Part shown: positions 1,166 through 64,000 of the stretch, piece after piece
Layout: each line of letters begins with the position of its first letter
Position numbering within the stretch: position 1 is the stretch's first letter
Assembly: GCA_024401435.1 (NCBI GenBank)
Contig: JAKSLB010000009.1
Span: 37,023-101,022, forward strand
Length of the DNA: 64,000 nt
Reading direction: 5' to 3'
DNA from: Paludibacteraceae bacterium
GTDB lineage: Bacteria > Bacteroidota > Bacteroidia > Bacteroidales > Paludibacteraceae
Program-made: the position numbers and the translations under genes
Notes under the pieces: model-generated
Database searches by the model: none
Seen by the model: only the letters and a program-made list of their open reading frames with translations
What the model was told of the DNA's origin: nothing

Positions 1166-4100
1166 TTATCGAATCAATTGAATAGCACCTTTTTTCTCGC
1201 CTTTTTTCTTCAAGCCTTTAAAGATACTCTTGTAATTCACCACATAACCATATACGCCCCAAGGACATTTGTTTCCATGTTTGTCGGTACCATCCCAAGC
1301 ATCATCTTGACTATGACCTTCAAATACGATTGTACCTTGTCTGTTGTAGATGATGAATGACATTTCTGTGATGAATTCAGTACTGAAGAAATGGAAATCG
1401 TCATTTAGACCATCACCATTAGGTGTAAAGGCATTAGGAGCCCATAAGCCTTTCCATACATAGACGTATTCATCCTTTTCATATTCACATCCGTTTGTTG
1501 CTAATGCATAAGCATGAACAAGGAAGGAATCCTGGTCAACACGAGGGTATTTGTATACGGTGTCTCTTACATGCAAAATATCATCATTTCCTGGGTTCCA
1601 TACCCATTCAACTACTTCAAATGGATATTCAGCCTGCATATGGATGACAGGGTTTTCTTCTTCGATAACCTTTGGAGTAACCAAGAATTCCATAGCTTTT
1701 TCTTTGGTTTGCTCAACTGTATAGCTAACACTGTTCTTACATCCATATTCGCTTGTTCCAGTAACAATAACTTCTGTTTCTTCTGTTAATACAGTTTTAA
1801 CATGACTGTTAATGCTATCTAATGGAGTTATCTCTGCATAAGGTATGGACTTCCACTGATATGTCTTAGCACCTTCAACACCTAATTCTACATTTGTATT
1901 ACCATCAGGACATCCTATAATCTTATCATCAATGATGTGGATTCTAGGAAGATCATGGACAGTGACATCAAAGTACTTGTCTGCAGAACAACCCTGCCAG
2001 TTCTCACCCCACAAATGGAATCTTGTTGATTTACTTAATTTGTAAGATATTTCACTAGTGGAGTCTCTTGTTGACCAATAATATTTGGCAGCACCCATTG
2101 CATTGATTCGGGCAATATCACCTGCACAGATATCACTATCACCTTCTATTCTAAGAATTGGAAGATCTTTTGTGGTAATATTGAATGTTGTAGAATCAGA
2201 ACATTTACCGAGTGAAACTGTTAACATAACTTTTGTTGTGTCTTGTATAGGTTTGTATGTTAAATGACCACCCAAGAAGGACTTAGCGTTATTGTCATTG
2301 TAAATTGTCCATATGAAGGTGTCTCCACCTTGAGCTGTCAATTGTACATTTTCGCCTTTACAAACATCTTTCGCACCATCAATTACGATTTCAGGTGGGT
2401 CTGTGACACTAATCTCTTTGTATACAATGTTTTGACATCCGTTAGTGTCAACACCTGTAACGAAAATTCCAGATTCTCTATTGATTGGAATTGTAACAAA
2501 ACCTTCATATTCAGTTTCGTAATCTGTACAACTTTCATCACGTCCCCAATGGTAATTTCTAGCATTACCTTCGGCATGCATTGTTAAACTTTGACCTCTA
2601 CAAACTGAATTTTCGCTCTTGATTTCAAAATTAGGTTTTGGATTAACAGTAACAAAAAACGATGTTGTATCAGTACATAAGTTTTCACTGATTCCTTTTA
2701 ATTTGTATATCGTGCTTACAGTAGGATATACTTTTATGATAGAATCCGTATTTCCATTGTACCATTCATAGTATTTTGCACCAGATGCTTTTAATGAATC
2801 AATTTCACCATAGCAGATTTTTGAATGACCAGAAATAGAGATTTCCGGACGCTTCAAAATTTCAACTGAAATAGAATCTGTTGTAGAACATCCATTTGTT
2901 GTTCCTGTGACTTTGTAAGTTACGAAACCAGTATCTTTAGGTGTGTCTGATATTTGGTTAGTAGAAGATCCTATTTCCCATTTGTATTCGTTTGCACCAA
3001 ATGCGGAAATGTTTAATCCCTCATTTTGACAAATTGATTTAGGTGCAATAAACGATAGAATAGGGTATTCTTTACTTGTAACAGTTGTATATAAGTCACT
3101 CGAACAATTCTTATCATCTGTTGCAGTGATCTTGAATGTAGTGTTATTGTTAATGTTTGCTGTGATTGTTGAAGTTGATTTGGAAATGGTTGCACCGTCT
3201 TCGTCCCAACTCCAATTGTACTCATACACTTTGTCTGTATTGCTAACGCTGGTCAATTCAGTTGTTAAACCTTTACAAACAGATTTCTCTCCTTCGATTC
3301 TGAAATCTGGTAATGGATTGATTACGACTGTATGACTGGCAGTATTAGAACAGCCATGTTCGTCTGTTCCAACAACAGTGTATGTCATGGTACTTAATGG
3401 TGTAGCTGTTAGCGTTTCAGATTGAAGACCATTACTCCATACATATGTGCTGGCACCAGAAACTGTGAGTTTGATAGGATCATTGATACAAACTTCAGAT
3501 TCTCCATCAATGTTGATAGTAGGAAGAGGCAATACATTGACTGGAATAGTTTCTGTTGCTGTACAACCCTCTAAATAACCAACGACAGTAAATGCTGTAT
3601 TGCTTGTTGGCATGGAATTAAGAGTATTTCCAGTTGAATGATTTTCGTCATCCCATTCATAACTATTAGCACCGAGTACTGTGATGGTTGCAATTTCTCC
3701 TAAACAGATAGGACTATTGGTTGCATAAGTAAGTACAGGAATGTCTTTCTTTCTTACTTGTTTTGTAGCAGAAGAAGAACAATTGTTAGTATCTGTACCT
3801 ATCACAGTATAAATTTGTGTTGTAAGAATGTTTGGTCTGATTGTGTCAGTAGTTTCCTTTGTTGACCAAACATAGGTGTTAGCACCTTTAGCAACAAGTT
3901 GTGCTGTTTCATTGTAGCAGATTGCTGCATCACCTTCAATAGTTACGACTGGCAATGGATTGACAGTAACTTTGAATGAATCTTTGGATTCACAACCATT
4001 GTTACTCTTACCAATTACATAATATTCCGTTGTCATTGTTGGTTTAGCATTAATGCTCTTTGTTCTTGAACCTTCACTCCAAATATAAGATGCAGCTCCG

Positions 4101-7100
4101 TTTGCTTCCAAGAATACTGTTTGGTTAAGACAAATAGCATTTGTCTTACAAAGAATCTTCACATCAGGTAACTCCCACATTTCAATTGTTTTACTTTCTT
4201 CTGTAGTACAGCCATTGGTAGTACCATACACGGTATATGTGCGAGTAGCGTTGATTGTGTCTGAAATGTTGTTTTCAGTTCTTCCATCATCCCATACGTA
4301 AGATGCAGCTCCAGTGGCTGTTAAAGTAGCTATGTCGCCAGAACATATAGCATTAGGCGCATTGATTTCAACAATAGGATAATCTTTGGTCTTAATGTTT
4401 TTAGTTCTGTAAGAAACACATCTGTTACTATCTTCAGCTTTTACTGTAAATTCTTGGTCATTGTCGATGGCAACCATGATGGAATCACCTTTTGTATTTG
4501 AATGAGATGTCCATGTATAGGTTGCTGGATCACCTTCAACCCATAATGTGTCAATATCACCTTTACAAACTAACTCTTCTCCCTTGATTTCAAAAGATGG
4601 AAGAGGGTTGACGTATACAATGAATTCAGCTTCATTTTGACATCCAAATTCGTCTTTTCCTGTTACATGGTAGGTCGTTTCTACCAAAGGATGAACAGAA
4701 ATGTTGTTGCTGGTTGATCCTGTATTCCATGTGTATTTGTCAGCTTCACCACCATTTCCTTTCAATTTGATGCTGTCATTCAAACATATATGGTCATTTC
4801 CACTTTCAGACTCAATTGAAATAATAGGAAGTTCTTTTACTTCTATTCGTACAGAATCTATTGTTGTACAACCGTTTGTTGAACCTTCAACAACATAAGT
4901 CGTATCTTTTTCTGGAACATCAACAAAACTACGTTGAGTGATTTCTTTGTCGCTTCTCCATTTGTATGTGCTTGCACCTTTGACAGATACAATTGCAGAA
5001 TTTCCTTTACATACATATGCAGGATTGTCAAATTTCAAAATAGGATATGCTTTTGCAGAAACAGTACGTTGAGTATTGTTATAACATCCAAATTCATCTG
5101 TAACTTTTAGATAGAATGTTTGCTCTTTTGAAATGGTTGTTTTTAATGTGTCTTTATTGTCAAAGTCAGCATAACCATTCCATTTGTATTCTTTAATTGT
5201 AAAGTCTTCTGTGGTTTTAGCAATTAATTCGAACGAATCATTTTCACAAATATTAGATACACTTTCAATTTCAATTAATGGTATTGGATGAACGATAACA
5301 TTCGTATCAGCCTTGTTTTGACAACCATATTGGTCTATACCAACGATACTATAATCTGTTGTGTTCGCAGGCGAAACGATAATGTTGTCTTTGGTTTCTT
5401 TTGTATTCCAAATATAATTACCATTCATACCAGCACCTTCTCCAACAAGTTTGATTCTTCCTTGACCTTTACAAATTTCGTTTGATTCGTCATTATTATC
5501 AGCATTGTATGCTTTGATACTGATAATAGGAAGTTGTCTTACTTTTATTTCTACCGAATCGGTAGTAGAACATCCATTGGCAGTTCCTACTACTGTAAAC
5601 ACAGTGTCTTGTGTTATGACGTCTGTTCTAAAGTTCTTCGTAGAATAGTCATTTTCCCACAAATAAGAGGTTGCACCTTTCACTGAAATCGTTGTTCTCT
5701 CACCATAACATACATAATAGTCTGCTATACCAAAACTTAATTCAGGATGATCAATCTTCTTCACATCGTAAGAGTTTTGATAGTGACATCCATTGATATC
5801 AGTTACGGTTACATAGAATGTTGTGTCAGATGTGATGGTTGCAGTGATAGATTCAGTATCATATGAAAGAGTATCTACTCCTGATGCATCTTTGATCCAA
5901 TCATATCTTACCGCATCCTTGGCAGATGCTAATAATGTGACTGTAGAGTCGTAGCAAGCTGATTTCTCACCTACAATAGCTAAATCGGCAGGAAGAGAAT
6001 TAACTGTTACAGAATGTGTTGCAGTGGATTTACAACCAAATTCATCCGTTGCTGAAATTTCGTATGTCTTATTGACAATAGGAGCTTCCGTTATGATTGG
6101 ATTGCTTTCTCCATTGTGTCTCCATTTATAAATTAAGTCACCTCTGTTTTCAACTTCATTAGGTGTTGCAGTTAATGTAACAGAATCGTTTAGACAGATA
6201 ACACTGTCACCCGTGATTTTAAAGATTGGTAATTGAAGTGTGTCAATATGAATGGTGTATGGAGTGACACAACCATTTGTCGTACCTTCAACAATGAAAT
6301 CTTTAGGAGCATTTAAGATGTCAGAGAAGGAGTTTCCATTGGATCCGTCTTCTGTCCATACATAATTTTCAGCACCGCTTACATATAAGGTGATGGCACC
6401 ATTGACACAAACACTATCTCTACCTGTTGTTGTCTTATGACTTAATATAGGATATTCTTTTGCTTTAATTACAAAGGATGCAGAATCGATACAAGAGTTG
6501 GCGTCTTTTACAACTAACCAATATGTGTATGAATCATCAGTAATTTGAGTTTTATAACTACTTTCATTTGCATTTTCGATGGCTACACCATTCATATGCC
6601 ATTCGTATTCTGTAGCAGTGCTTGCAACAGCTTTTAATTCTGTTGAATCGCCTCTACAAACGAACTCGTCAGCTTGGATGGCAACAGAAGGTAATGAATT
6701 GACGAATACTTTAATTGTATCATAGTTCTTACAACCATTGCTATCGATACCAGTTACAGAGTATGAACTTTCGCCTGTGATGACAGGTGTAACGTAGATA
6801 GAGTCATCTGAACTACCTGTATTCCATTTGTATAAATTAGATTCACCACCAGTAGCAACAAGTTTGGCTGGTTGACGAAGACATATATTATCAATTGGGT
6901 TGATCTTAATGTTCGGCAAATCCCAAACTTTGATTATAGTATCGATTACTGATGTACAGCCATTTGTTGTACCTTCAACATGGATAGCAGTATCTTTTCT
7001 TATATTTTCCAAACGAAGATAGTTGGAAACTTGAGAAGCATCGTTATTCCACTTGTATCCATTTGTGGCACCAGCAACATAGATAGTTCTTGATTCGTTG

Positions 7101-10100: not shown

Positions 10101-13100
10101 TGATACTTAGATTTGTCTGTATAAGTTCCATTCCAATTATAGGAAAGAATCTCTTCTGCATTTGCCGAAATCACAACTGAAGAGTCCTCGCAAACATATG
10201 TTTTTGCAGGAATAGTGAATTCTGGTAAATAATTGATTTTAACAATTACACTATCCGTTCTCTTACAAGAGTTTTTGTCTGTACCTTCTACAACAAATTT
10301 TGTTGTTTCTAATGGTTGTTTGACAATAGTTGAAGTGTTTCCATCAAGAATATTTTCCCATGAATAAGCTTGCATATTTGCACCATCAGCAATAAGAGTT
10401 ATCTTATCTCCATAACAAATTTCAGCTATGTGTGATGCGGAAATTTTTATGTCATCTCCATTTTCATTTTTTGCAAGAATTTCTACAGGGGTTCCTGAGT
10501 AAACACCAATTTCAAATGTTGTATCCTTATAACAACCATTTACTTCTCCTGTTACTGTGAATTTCGTTTTACGAGTGAGTGTTTGAGAGTAGTTTCCAGT
10601 TGTTATTTCCGGATGTCCTTTCCATGTATATGAATTAGCACCAGTGATTTTGAGGTCTGCAGATGATCCTTTACATACATATTCAGGAACATTTACAGTT
10701 AATGTAGGTTGTGGTTTTGTGACAAGATTAAAGAATGATACAACGTTACAATCATCAGTCGTTTGTATTGTGGATTCTATCACAATATTGTTTGATGAAG
10801 CAACGAAATTAAGTTCTTCTTCTTCTCCTAAAATCACATTGTTTGTGGTATCTCTCCATCTTATGGATTTTATGTTGTTACCTCCAGCGATAGAAAGATT
10901 TACATTGTCACCTTCGCAATAAGCGTCTTTGCCAATGATTGTGAAGGTAGGATTAATGTAGCTAGACAATGTGTAGTAAGCCGTAGTGTCACATTGCGTT
11001 ATAGCGTCTGTTACAGTAACGGTGTAAGTAGTTGGGTCAATTGGAGCAGCAACAGTAATTCCCTTAGTTGTAGCGTTCGTACTCCATTTGTATTCATATA
11101 CACCATCAGGAATGTCCTGTCTATTCAAATCTTTTACAGAAATTTCTGTGGTTGATTCTTTACATAATGATGCAGGTCCGTCAATTTTGATTTGAGGACG
11201 ACTGTGAACATTTACATTAACGGTTGATTTGTTAGAACAACTTAGCACACCTGTTTTTAACAAGTATTGTTTGTAACCTGTTACTTCGTAATTGTATGGA
11301 TCAGATGATACGTCTTGAATAGTAGGTTCTGTCCATGATTTAGCTGTTGTTCTAGAAGAATCTGGCCAAATATAGTAATCGGCATTACTATTATCAATTA
11401 TAATAGTGACAGCTTGATTATGACATATGTCTTCTGCTTTAGGTGCAGCAGTAAAGTTTGGTTTTGCTTTAGTATCAACTGAAACTTCTTTCTCATAAGA
11501 ACAAGTCTTGCCGTTTTCTTCTCTTTCAGTTACAAGTTTAATGACATGAGTTCCTTCATTAGTGATATTAGTTTCAAAGGAAGCGTCATTGAAAGATGTC
11601 GGATTACCATCAAATGTCCATGTGTATGATTGAGGAGTAGGGTAGTCGGAAGAACTTTCTGCTTCAATTTCCAATTCACTATCGATACAGATAGCTTCAG
11701 GGTAAATTAGATTAACAATAGGCTTCTTGTTCTTCTTTACAAAGAAGGTGTCTGTTGCAGAACATTGTTTGTTGTTTCGGACGATTACAGAGTATTCTGT
11801 TAATTCTGCAGTAGGTGATACTTCTATGTTATCAGTCGTTTTATTGTTACTCCAGTTGTAGTTAACATCTTCGGATGCTGTAGCTGTTAAAGTGACAGCT
11901 TCTCCTTCACAAATATAGGCTGTTTTATTGCTTGAAATAGTATTAGCTGCAATTGATACAGAAGGATTATTGTTTACTTTTATTTCAATTGTTGTATCGG
12001 TCTGACAATTGTTCAAAGTGGCTAATATCTTATATTGCGCATCTTTTGTAGGAGTTAGCAATCGGTGATTGCTATAAATTGCTTCACTATTTAAGTTTTC
12101 AGAGTCGTAATACCATTTATAGTTGCTGTCACTGACACCTGCACCAGAAACTGTAATTGTAGTTGATTGACCTTGACAAATTTCTCTGGCTCCTGAGAAA
12201 TATAATGTAGGGTTGTTTTTCTTGGTTACAGTATATTTTTTAGACTTTCCTTCACAACCATATTTGTCGATACCTATTACAGTAAATGAACTATCGGATG
12301 TGATTGTTGGTGTGATTGTTTCTTCAGTAGAACCTGTGCTCCACTTATAAGATACAGCACCCGTAGCATACAATGTAGCTTCTGTTCCATCACAAACGCT
12401 CTTGTCTCCTGAAATTATTACATTAGGGTTAGCTTTTACAACAATAGGAATGATATTGCTTCCGATACAACCATGAGCGTCTGTAACTTCCACTTCAAAT
12501 TTATATGGAGTGGTAGTGTTGGTTAATTTGTAGGTTGTTGTAGTGCTCTCATTCGTAGAAGTAACGTAATTGCTCTTCCAGTTGTATGAGAATGGAGCTT
12601 CACCTGCAGGTGTAGCCTCTAATGTGACGTCAGTGTTGTAACATATAGTGTCTTTGTCTTCTGCAGGTTTGAGAGTTACTGTTGGAAGATCATAATACTT
12701 GGTAGTAAATGTTGTATCATGACTACATCCCTCGTTTGTGACTTTTAAAGTAATTGTTTTTTCTTTATTTACGACAAGAGGAAGTGTATTAGCCGCAGTT
12801 TTTACGGACTCTCCATCCTCTGTCCATTCATAAGATGAACCTGATAAGCTGGAGAAGGCAGTTAATGTTATTTTACCATTTAAACAAACCACATCGTTAC
12901 CTGTAATTGAGATGCTCGGATTAGGTTTTGATTTAACAGTATATGTTGCTTTGTTTTGACAATGAAGTGTAGTGTTGTCAGTGACACCAACTTCATAATT
13001 GTTAACGCCTTCGTGAGCTGTAATTTGCAATTTGTCGTTTCCGATGGCAGTTGAATCTGGTAACCAGAAATAAGTGTAGTCTGTTTGGTAGTTGTTGATT

Positions 13101-61684: not shown

Positions 61685-62695
61685 ATGAGAAAGGTAAGTT
61701 TATTCATTGCTTCTTTGCTTTGTGCAGGATTGATGAGCAGTTGTAACGGCAATCAGGGCGAGGATAATAATAAAAAGGGTTGTTGTCTCGTTCCTAAGTT
61801 AACAAGTATGAAATGTGAGTTCGTTCCAGATGGTGGTGAAGCTATCATTTATGGTAAGAATCTTACAGGTGCAGAAATCACCTTCCCAGGCGATTTAGTT
61901 GCAGAGATCGTAGCTCAAAACGATACGATGGTTAAGGTGATCGTTCCAGAAGGTACAAAAGAAGGTCGTATTAAGGTGAAATCAGCCAATGGACATTCAT
62001 TGTCAAAATTCTTCTTCCGTGATGGACGTAATATCATCGTTAATTTTGATAAATATTTAGCTACATGGGGTGGCTATAGTCCAATGGAGGAAGATGGTAC
62101 TTTGATTACAGGTACATTGGAAATGGGCGATTCAATTACTCCTTTCCCTAATAATGCAAAATTACCTGAACCATGCAGTGGTAATTATGGATTCCTTTAT
62201 GGTAAATATTCTAATGCTTGGTCGATGAATCAATCAGTATGGATTCAATATGTTGCTAATCCTGTTGAAGGTGGTCGTGGACCTATCTCTGTTGCAGGAA
62301 AAGTATTTGAGAAATATGATTTGGAAGAGTTGGCTTTGAGATTTGAAGTTTATGTTCCTCAAGAGGTTGCTTATAAAGGAATCAGAACTGAAATATTCTT
62401 TGGTCCAATTAACGCAGCTGATAAACATGGTCGTGACTACTCTCCAATTTACTTCTGGAAACCTTATGAGAATACTTCAGATGGTTTCTATACAGATGCA
62501 TGGACTACTGTTACAATTCCATTGACAGAGTTCTGTCACAATACTTCAAGTGATGAACCAGTTGCTGGTTATGATTACAAAAATAGTTTGAAACAAGCTA
62601 CAAACTTTAGTTTCCTTTTGTTCGGACAACCTGAAGGTGAACCACAAATCTTTATGTGTGTTGATAACTTCCGTATTGTTCCGGTTGAGAAATAA
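61685..62695 (+). CDS. Surface glycan-binding lipoprotein (SGBP-B-like)
   Basis: The protein has 336 residues. A lipoprotein signal (MRKVSLFIASLLCAGLMSSC) has its lipid-modified Cys at residue 20. An IPT/TIG-like Ig domain follows (about 40-115, with GGEAIIYGKNLTGAEITFPG). The C-terminal ~220 residues resemble the glycan-binding domain of SGBP-B-type proteins in polysaccharide-utilisation loci, with many exposed Trp/Tyr residues and a closing FMCVDNFRIVPV. It would bind polysaccharide at the outer surface. No SusC/D, hydrolase or regulator genes are adjacent, so it is an orphan here. A strong terminator follows. Confidence 0.82.
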   Translation: MRKVSLFIASLLCAGLMSSCNGNQGEDNNKKGCCLVPKLTSMKCEFVPDGGEAIIYGKNLTGAEITFPGDLVAEIVAQNDTMVKVIVPEGTKEGRIKVKSANGHSLSKFFFRDGRNIIVNFDKYLATWGGYSPMEEDGTLITGTLEMGDSITPFPNNAKLPEPCSGNYGFLYGKYSNAWSMNQSVWIQYVANPVEGGRGPISVAGKVFEKYDLEELALRFEVYVPQEVAYKGIRTEIFFGPINAADKHGRDYSPIYFWKPYENTSDGFYTDAWTTVTIPLTEFCHNTSSDEPVAGYDYKNSLKQATNFSFLLFGQPEGEPQIFMCVDNFRIVPVEK

Positions 62696-62824: not shown

Positions 62825-62845
62825 CAAAAAAGCATAGAAACAAAT

Positions 62846-62945
62846 ACAACGATACATATGAAGAAAATATTATTTGCAATCGCCACACTGCTGTTGTTGG
62901 CAAATTGCACAGGCGGACAAGGAGGGAACGAAACGGATGCCGAAT
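62846..62945 (+). repeat. Left copy of a 100-base perfect direct repeat
   Basis: Bases 62846-62945 are identical to 63901-64000, base for base to the end of the window. The unit starts 12 bases before the ATG and covers the first 29 codons of the lipoprotein gene; the offset is 1055 bases. Immediately upstream of the repeat the two flanks differ. Confidence 0.97.
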
Positions 62946-63796
62946 CAAAAGACTCGGTCAAATGCGTACTGGACACGGCTGTTCCGGCGGTCACGCAGGA
63001 AGATACGCTTCCCGCTGATTATAGTGTCAAACCTGTGTCAGACAGTGTTCAGACATTGGTTCAGGCAGACGAAGCGGAGAGTGATATGGATGCCGAGAAG
63101 GAATCCTTCACCGTGGAGGGTGTTACCTTCACAATGATAAGGGTGGAACCTGGCACCTTTATGATGGGTTGCGCACCCAATCAGGAAGAGGATGCATGGG
63201 ATGAGGAAAAGCCACGTCATCAGGTAACCCTCACCCAACCCTATTACATAGGAGAGACGCAGGTGACGCAAGCCTTGTGGCAGGCTGTGATGGGAAATAA
63301 CCCAAGTTACGTCACTGGGGATTTGCAACGCCCGGTAGAAAGAGTAAGTTGGAACGACTGCCAGGAGTTTATAGAAAAACTGAACGAGCTTACGGGAAAA
63401 CAATTCACCTTGCCGACGGAGGCACAGTGGGAATATGCCGCCCGTGGAGGAAACAGAAGCAAAGGATTCAAATATGCAGGTTCTGATGATTTGGATGAGG
63501 TGGCTTGGTGGGAGGGTAATTCAAATGAAGAGACTCATCCGGTCAAAACAAAAGCCCCTAATGAGTTGGGCATCTACGATATGAGTGGCAATGTATGGGA
63601 GTGGTGTCAGGACTGTTATGATTCTTATCCACAATCCTGTGTGACAGATCCTCTCTGTGCATCTGGCTCTCGCCGTGTGCTTCGTGGTGGTAGTTGGATC
63701 AACAATGCGCGGATCTGCCGTTCTTCGCACCGCGACTACGACTTCCCCGACTACTACAACTTCCACCTGGGGTTCCGCTTGGCGTTTGTCCCATAG
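62858..63796 (+). CDS. SUMF1/FGE-fold lipoprotein, probable DGR-diversified variable protein
   Basis: From the ATG at 62858 the protein has 312 residues. The lipobox LLLLANC puts the lipidated Cys at 17, followed by an acidic linker. From about residue 87 the SUMF1/FGE-sulfatase (C-type-lectin-like) domain runs to the end, with PGTFMMG, PVERVSWNDCQEF, LPTEAQWEYAARGG, GIYDMSGNVWEWCQD and RVLRGGSW. The first catalytic Cys of formylglycine-generating enzymes is not present, so sulfatase activation is unlikely. Residues 281-303 show the composition of a DGR variable region: I, N, H, D, Y and F at positions where such proteins have AAC-derived residues, nearly all as NNC codons, followed by LGFRL. 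It is probably a surface-displayed ligand-binding lipoprotein. The gene is visibly more G+C-rich than its neighbours and is tandemly duplicated. Confidence 0.85.
   Translation: MKKILFAIATLLLLANCTGGQGGNETDAESKDSVKCVLDTAVPAVTQEDTLPADYSVKPVSDSVQTLVQADEAESDMDAEKESFTVEGVTFTMIRVEPGTFMMGCAPNQEEDAWDEEKPRHQVTLTQPYYIGETQVTQALWQAVMGNNPSYVTGDLQRPVERVSWNDCQEFIEKLNELTGKQFTLPTEAQWEYAARGGNRSKGFKYAGSDDLDEVAWWEGNSNEETHPVKTKAPNELGIYDMSGNVWEWCQDCYDSYPQSCVTDPLCASGSRRVLRGGSWINNARICRSSHRDYDFPDYYNFHLGFRLAFVP
63698..63766 (+). other. Candidate DGR variable region (VR)
   Basis: Of 23 codons, 17 end in C, including all 13 from 63728 to 63766 (cac cgc gac tac gac ttc and so on), in a genome that favours A/T at third positions. 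Replacing bases of AAC codons at their A positions gives exactly this kind of pattern. A fixed, G+C-rich end (CTGGGGTTCCGCTTGGCG, from 63767) follows, where an initiation-of-mutagenic-homing (IMH) element would sit. No template repeat is in the window. Confidence 0.6.
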
Positions 63797-63900
63797 TTCA
63801 AAAAGCCAGAAAGACCTTTACGAGCAGGAAGGAAAGGGAGTGTCGAAAGGAGCGAGCGAAGGATGAGCCGCGGGAAAGACATGACAAAAAGGAAATTAAA
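63797..63900 (+). other. Purine-rich spacer between the two lipoprotein gene copies
   Basis: This 104-base spacer is strikingly purine-rich on the + strand (for example GAAAGGAGCGAGCGAAGG) and contains CCGCGG. It has no TAnnTTTG box and no clear terminator, so the second copy may be read through from the first. Elements acting in cis downstream of a DGR variable region would lie here, but I cannot define a stem. Confidence 0.4.
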
Positions 63901-64000
63901 ACAACGATACATATGAAGAAAATATTATTTGCAATCGCCACACTGCTGTTGTTGGCAAATTGCACAGGCGGACAAGGAGGGAACGAAACGGATGCCGAAT
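63901..64000 (+). repeat. Right copy of the 100-base perfect direct repeat
   Basis: This is identical to 62846-62945 through the last base of the window, so the true repeat is at least 100 bases and probably longer. Confidence 0.97.
63913..64000 (+). CDS. Second SUMF1-fold lipoprotein gene, 5' end only (runs off the window)
   Basis: The ATG at 63913 opens the same first 29 codons as the gene at 62858 (MKKILFAIATLLLLANC lipoprotein signal, then TGGQGG), without a single difference. The rest lies outside the window, so it cannot be said whether it is a full second copy with its own variable C-terminus or a truncated one. Confidence 0.85.
   Translation, partial: MKKILFAIATLLLLANCTGGQGGNETDAE

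Follow-up and report, generated by a model that had tools for sequence, protein, structure and literature searches.

The gene at 62858..63796 (+) of the window, the 64,000-nucleotide stretch of DNA analysed here, is very probably a rewritten target (recipient) of a diversity-generating retroelement (DGR) of the TvpA/HRDC type. The codons of its variable region (VR) follow the NNC/NNT pattern that AAC/AAT templates would give, and the evidence below supports the view that they bear the mark of adenine-directed rewriting. We give about an even chance to the reverse transcriptase (RT) and template repeat (TR) both being present in the source organism today, in which case the unread sequence past a broken contig end is the likeliest place for them.

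The frame is intact, with zero inner stops on translation, and encodes a 312-aa lipoprotein with a single C-terminal FGE-sulfatase (C-type-lectin-like) domain. Its N-terminus, MKKILFAIATLLLLANC, appears lipobox-like by eye, and the translation read in the same way places the signal peptide and lipobox at 62858..62908 (+), the last residue being Cys17 (LLANC). A Pfam search matches PF03781 (FGE-sulfatase) to residues 92-309 of 312 (E 3.4e-48), in agreement with an earlier sequence-only reading of this DNA, which had proposed a lipoprotein ending in an FGE fold and whose quoted C-terminal sequence is that of our translation. The top PDB match is TvpA of Treponema denticola (2Y3C, E 5.1e-37), and the second best, an FGE (6muj, E 8.8e-23), is weaker. 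The probable VR spans 63665..63796 (+), with bounds taken from the VR/TR pair of a relative's locus, L015, in an alignment that also includes the pair of L064; judged by sequence, the C-terminal FGE/C-type-lectin-like domain holds the VR as it does in TvpA-type DGR targets. The protein is presumably located at the cell surface, and presumably binds a ligand or partner. Its upstream neighbour (61685-62695, +) is a lipoprotein with the xyloglucan-binding domain of surface glycan-binding protein B (PF18329, E 9.4e-28).

Within the VR, a hypervariable core at 63698..63766 (+) holds 14 positions that would be AAC/AAT-type in a template. In the target the third base is C at 13 of these and T at one, a pyrimidine in 14/14. 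The codons of 63728-63766 read CAC CGC GAC TAC GAC TTC CCC GAC TAC TAC AAC TTC CAC, and a codon-by-codon rereading confirms the sequence-only observation that all 13 end in C; elsewhere in the window's 59 reading frames of 100 codons or more, the longest such run has 6 codons. Upstream in the same gene C-ending codons make up 20.7% of 276, and the probability of at least 13 C among 14 is 1.4e-8, rising to 2.2e-4 on the assumption of a pyrimidine at the third base, both values applying to positions that were picked after the alignment had been seen. GC3 of the gene upstream of the VR is ~0.50, so its third positions are not AT-rich.

The same 14 positions look different in most genus relatives. 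In six same-genome paralogues matching the frame, the counts of C-ending codons there are 0, 2, 2, 3, 4 and 5, and among 27 genus sequences one has 10 while 26/27 have at most 6. Among the matches listed, at least 9 C are found in 64 of 103 tail windows of other relatives, a set that also counts the L015 template and a small number of frames that overlap; the 171 C-terminal matches yielded 137 distinct windows in the 31-codon frame. Set against six relatives' templates, changes in the target at codon positions 1 and 2 are commoner at template A in 6/6 comparisons, with ortholog divergence mixed in. They amount to 14/30 at A and 4/32 elsewhere with the L015 template, and to 11/24 at A vs 10/38 elsewhere with that of L064, the least clear of the six. 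A weak test of third-base retention gave p 0.003 with one template and 0.2 and 0.2 with the other two, and in the same test one template gave p 0.004 for L011, a control paralogue.

Complete DGRs occur in relatives of the target. A scan of one genome per species (84,980 species) returned at least 590 matching stretches, and the best 80 of 190 confirmed loci were kept. L015 and L016 top the matches listed, each 64% identical to the target. L015 is a complete DGR: its PEGA-FGE target has the VR at 10574-10710, an HRDC gene and an RT are present, and the template (12329-12465) reads GGSWNNNARNCRVSNRNNNNPDNRNNNLGLR. Its RT carries IGNLTSQ and YMDD, which we take to be DGR-type motifs, and 19/21 of its TR/VR mismatches fall at template A. 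L064 has the same gene plan, with 11/12 mismatches at template A, and the corresponding cis counts are 22/24 in L163, 15/17 in L166, and 16/21 and 17/21 in the two targets of L165. In the genomes of 50 of the best 80 loci, an RT profile scores above 250 bits in five, at six loci, and nine more genomes have RT-profile matches of at most 118 bits only. The gene order target-HRDC-RT-TR is found at 5/6 of these RT loci (L015, L064, L163, L165, L166), and Pfam detects an HRDC domain in 5/5 accessory genes tested; the sixth locus, L164, is cut by a contig end and shows RT and TR only. With L163 on 7.2 kb and L166 on 4.1 kb, DGR RT loci often sit on short or cut contigs. The targets of the five complete loci, from Bacteroidales-type MAGs, have the target domain and the VR frame GGSW..AR.CR...R....PD......GFR in common with the window protein, are at most 64% identical to it, and in L015 and L163 carry PEGA domains where the window protein has a lipoprotein stem only. 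We infer that the window VR was written as in these target-HRDC-RT-TR loci.

Targets located apart from an RT also look rewritten in this family, since those of one genome (G017) match its templates in an A-directed manner. Relative to the L163 template, two targets off the RT contig have 16/17 (L016) and 17/19 (L027) of their mismatches at A, and L019 relative to the L164 template has 21/22; no RT was found by pattern within the 20.7 kb of L027. Each of the two DGR templates of G017 matches its own off-contig targets, so the genome may have two DGRs that each serve a remote set of their own.

Three other candidates were set aside among the relatives. Two repeat pairs, L054 6324-6379 vs 5185-5240 (56 bases, 6/7 mismatches at A) and L088 7956-7991 vs 5539-5574 (36 bases, 5/5 at A), were not counted as DGRs because neither has an RT by pattern beside it, and an RT-motif hit in L025 was judged spurious, the protein that contains it being of target type. 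L058 is of another form: at 2968-6529 it has six FGE tails in series, spaced by ~0.7 kb, of which most run on into the following domain without a break; four fit the frame, with 10-12 C at the 14 positions, and its genome (G048) has no RT match at 1e-15.

By the proposed mechanism, an RT would copy an AAC-rich template RNA, misreading its adenines, and the resulting cDNA would replace the 3' end of the target gene (mutagenic retrohoming). Template Asn codons would in this way pass from AAC to NNC, and would correspond in the window VR to I, N, D, H, Y and F; the face that the lipoprotein-anchored protein turns to its ligand or partner would then be randomised. The general mechanism is that given for DGRs in PMC8144416, trans action and DGRs with multiple targets are reported in other systems (PMC10907252), and HRDC is already named as a DGR accessory (PMC10053308), so we regard none of these traits, as described in those sources, as new.

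The sequence-only reading had placed the RT and a template repeat beyond position 64000. A search across the source assembly (3.83 Mb, 204 contigs, 93% complete) found neither, but the contig ends at 64000 within a tandem copy of the target gene. The profile RVT_1 (PF00078) has zero matches in this assembly and does detect the DGR RTs of relatives in a Pfam search, from which it follows that a DGR RT in the assembly would have been seen. Queried with the L015 RT, the assembly returns a best match of only E 0.054, with stops, and a DGR profile built from six RTs finds nothing at E 1e-40 in the source assembly or in any of 16 genus genomes. With the VR as a DNA query the sole match in the source assembly is the VR itself, the L015 TR has a best match there of E 0.305, and an A-masked VR pattern allowing up to 3 mismatches finds the VR alone in the 16 genus genomes. 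An accessory gene (Avd or HRDC) is absent from the readable sequence beside the target gene. Two genus RTs (L132 and L133) were rejected as DGR RTs because they match PADLOC retron-type profiles, as were the remaining genus RT loci, which do not match the DGR motif pattern and give nothing with the profile at 1e-40. Viral contigs yielded two distant relatives (44 and 46%), neither with an RT motif by pattern. Two observations taken together had been named by the sequence-only reading as speaking against it, namely the lack of an RT or template repeat anywhere in the genome and orthologues whose codons vary like ordinary sites; the first is what we find for the assembly. Because the assembly is incomplete and broken at this locus, the missing RT and TR denote absence from the assembly and not from the organism. 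The proposal of a DGR target rewritten by mutagenic retrohoming therefore stands in part: the TvpA-like lipoprotein, the DGR-target relatives with AAC-rich templates, and the NNC codons speak for it, and the missing RT and template against.

On its right the window runs to the end of contig C194 (101,022 bases). A second tandem copy starts at 63892..64000 (+), with its ATG at 63913, repeating 62837-62945 at an offset of 1055 until cut by the contig end; these last 109 bases are 97% identical to the first copy, with zero mismatches over the final 100. Since the contig ends just inside this copy, the sequence beyond 64000 is unreadable. Contig C129 likewise ends within a further copy, the third, which is 91% identical over 375 bases, has no lipoprotein start and is adjoined by unrelated genes. 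Near-identical copies such as these probably break contigs commonly in short-read assembly.

In the 120 bases after its stop codon the target has no strong hairpin 3' of the VR (z -0.4). All six cis targets (L015, L064, L163, two in L165, L166) have a DNA hairpin after the stop, with z from -2.0 to -7.8, and the three remote targets L016, L019 and L027 have z of -0.7, 1.8 and -1.5, a contrast of 6 vs 3 with numbers too small for a conclusion. Folding length matters to these values: 100 bases gave z -1.25 for L015 and -0.55 for the window, and 120 bases gave -2.7 for L015. Across a broader sample of 104, z falls below -2.5 in 22/56 targets with at least 9 C, 7/11 with 7-8 C and 4/37 with at most 6 C; with only 22/56 signature-bearing targets so placed, lack of a hairpin is common. 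According to PMC3240598, efficient homing in the BPP-1 phage requires a hairpin just after the VR; its DGR is alike in its adenine-directed mutagenic retrohoming, which we propose for the window target, and differs in that the window VR has no predicted hairpin. The window copy may be a target of the remote type, one of the inner copies in an array, or a recipient that is no longer live.

All 16 genus genomes hold relatives of the target, and the genus paralogues mostly lack the codon signature. The nearest genus gene (L167 8243-9745), in a genome that is 99% complete (G008), has the signature at 10/14 positions and in-frame stops, and no DGR RT is detected in that genome with the profile at 1e-40. 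Upstream of its FGE domain L167 looks protein-kinase-like by eye (GDLKPDN). Across 300 genomes of the family, the RT is found at 1e-40 in 24, target relatives at 1e-60 in 88 (which take in all 16 genus genomes), and both in 13. Of 29 loci 16 were readable, 11 of them from genomes outside the RT list, and the count of C reaches 9 or more in 8 of the 11; four of these signature-bearing loci come from genomes with a completeness of 95% or better, G008 among them. These frequencies, 24/300 for the RT vs 88/300 for target relatives, lend themselves to a broader reading, as does the finding that among the matches listed 64/103 tails have at least 9 C yet a DGR-type RT above 250 bits occurs in 5/50 genomes. 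This is that gut and rumen Bacteroidales may keep many recently rewritten DGR targets without an RT of their own, either through trans rewriting by a DGR on a mobile element or through transfer of rewritten genes, with tandem copies as a store of variants. We consider it unlikely, a plain alternative being that fragmented assemblies lie behind the RT-less pattern.

Of the other ways to account for the window gene, the one that bears most closely on the preferred reading is a case within it, so that their probabilities overlap: the target may be an orphan or relic of past DGR rewriting, or of transfer of an already rewritten gene, whose RT and TR are gone and whose VR is frozen. Its chance is somewhat short of even. 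A live DGR is opposed by the RT and TR not found in an assembly that is 93% complete, by the lack of a strong hairpin, and by the broken state of the nearest genus gene, and the missing hairpin together with that broken relative, in a genus of 16 genomes without a detected DGR RT, makes this a serious alternative. The RT-less, signature-bearing relatives in nearly complete genomes point the same way, and leftover targets are known elsewhere, strains of T. denticola without RT or TR retaining targets that are read as likely leftovers in PMC4891356. Against an orphan, the assembly breaks exactly at the target locus, the contigs that carry DGR RT loci in relatives (L163, L166, L164) are likewise often short or cut, and both the frame and the 13/14 pattern of C-ending codons are undecayed, which indicates that rewriting was not long ago.

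Two further explanations fare less well. The locus could be a tandem store, in which most of several near-identical copies are archived variants, only the hairpin-bearing copy nearest the RT is rewritten, and the others are mixed in by recombination. The second copy 1055 bases on, the third on C129 and the lack of a hairpin in the window copy all agree with such a store, but the C129 copy stands without a lipoprotein start among unrelated genes, and the array length, the other copies' VRs and any RT lie outside readable sequence; we judge it improbable. More improbable still is that the gene encodes an unremarkable lipoprotein of the FGE fold, diversified by selection alone, whose C-ending codons arose by chance or through a local bias in codon use. 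It is indeed common for FGE-sulfatase domains to occur without a DGR, as the mostly signature-free relatives in all 16 genus genomes illustrate, and formylglycine-generating enzymes belong to the same Pfam family. Chance is nevertheless hard to reconcile with the probabilities given above for the C-ending positions and with a run of 13 where the next is 6, and the closest relatives among the matches listed are DGR targets.

The preferred reading, a rewritten target of a TvpA/HRDC-type DGR, has its nearest known counterpart in the TvpA DGR of T. denticola (2Y3C). As described in PMC4891356, that system resembles the window gene in its FGE-fold lipoprotein targets with a C-terminal VR, resembles the relatives' loci in an HRDC accessory gene that overlaps the RT gene, and is alike also in that some targets lie far from the RT and others persist in strains that lack RT and TR. 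It differs in gene order, the same source placing the accessory gene between TR and RT where the relatives have target-HRDC-RT-TR. T. denticola belongs to another phylum, and RT and TR were not found in the source assembly, nor HRDC in the readable sequence beside the target gene.

If correctly read, the window gene is a further DGR target of the TvpA/HRDC kind, a lipoprotein in tandem copies from a genus in which no DGR RT was detected, and its codon fingerprint is legible from a single VR without the template. Should the RT-less pattern be real and not a product of assembly loss, these genomes would allow one to ask how long rewritten receptors are retained, and how they spread, after the machinery is lost.

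At the other end of the window, 1166-25264 (-) is one open frame of 8032 codons. Its product is a giant secreted protein in which Ig_7 (CHU_C-associated Ig-like) domains are numerous, with a C-terminal CHU_C type IX secretion signal.
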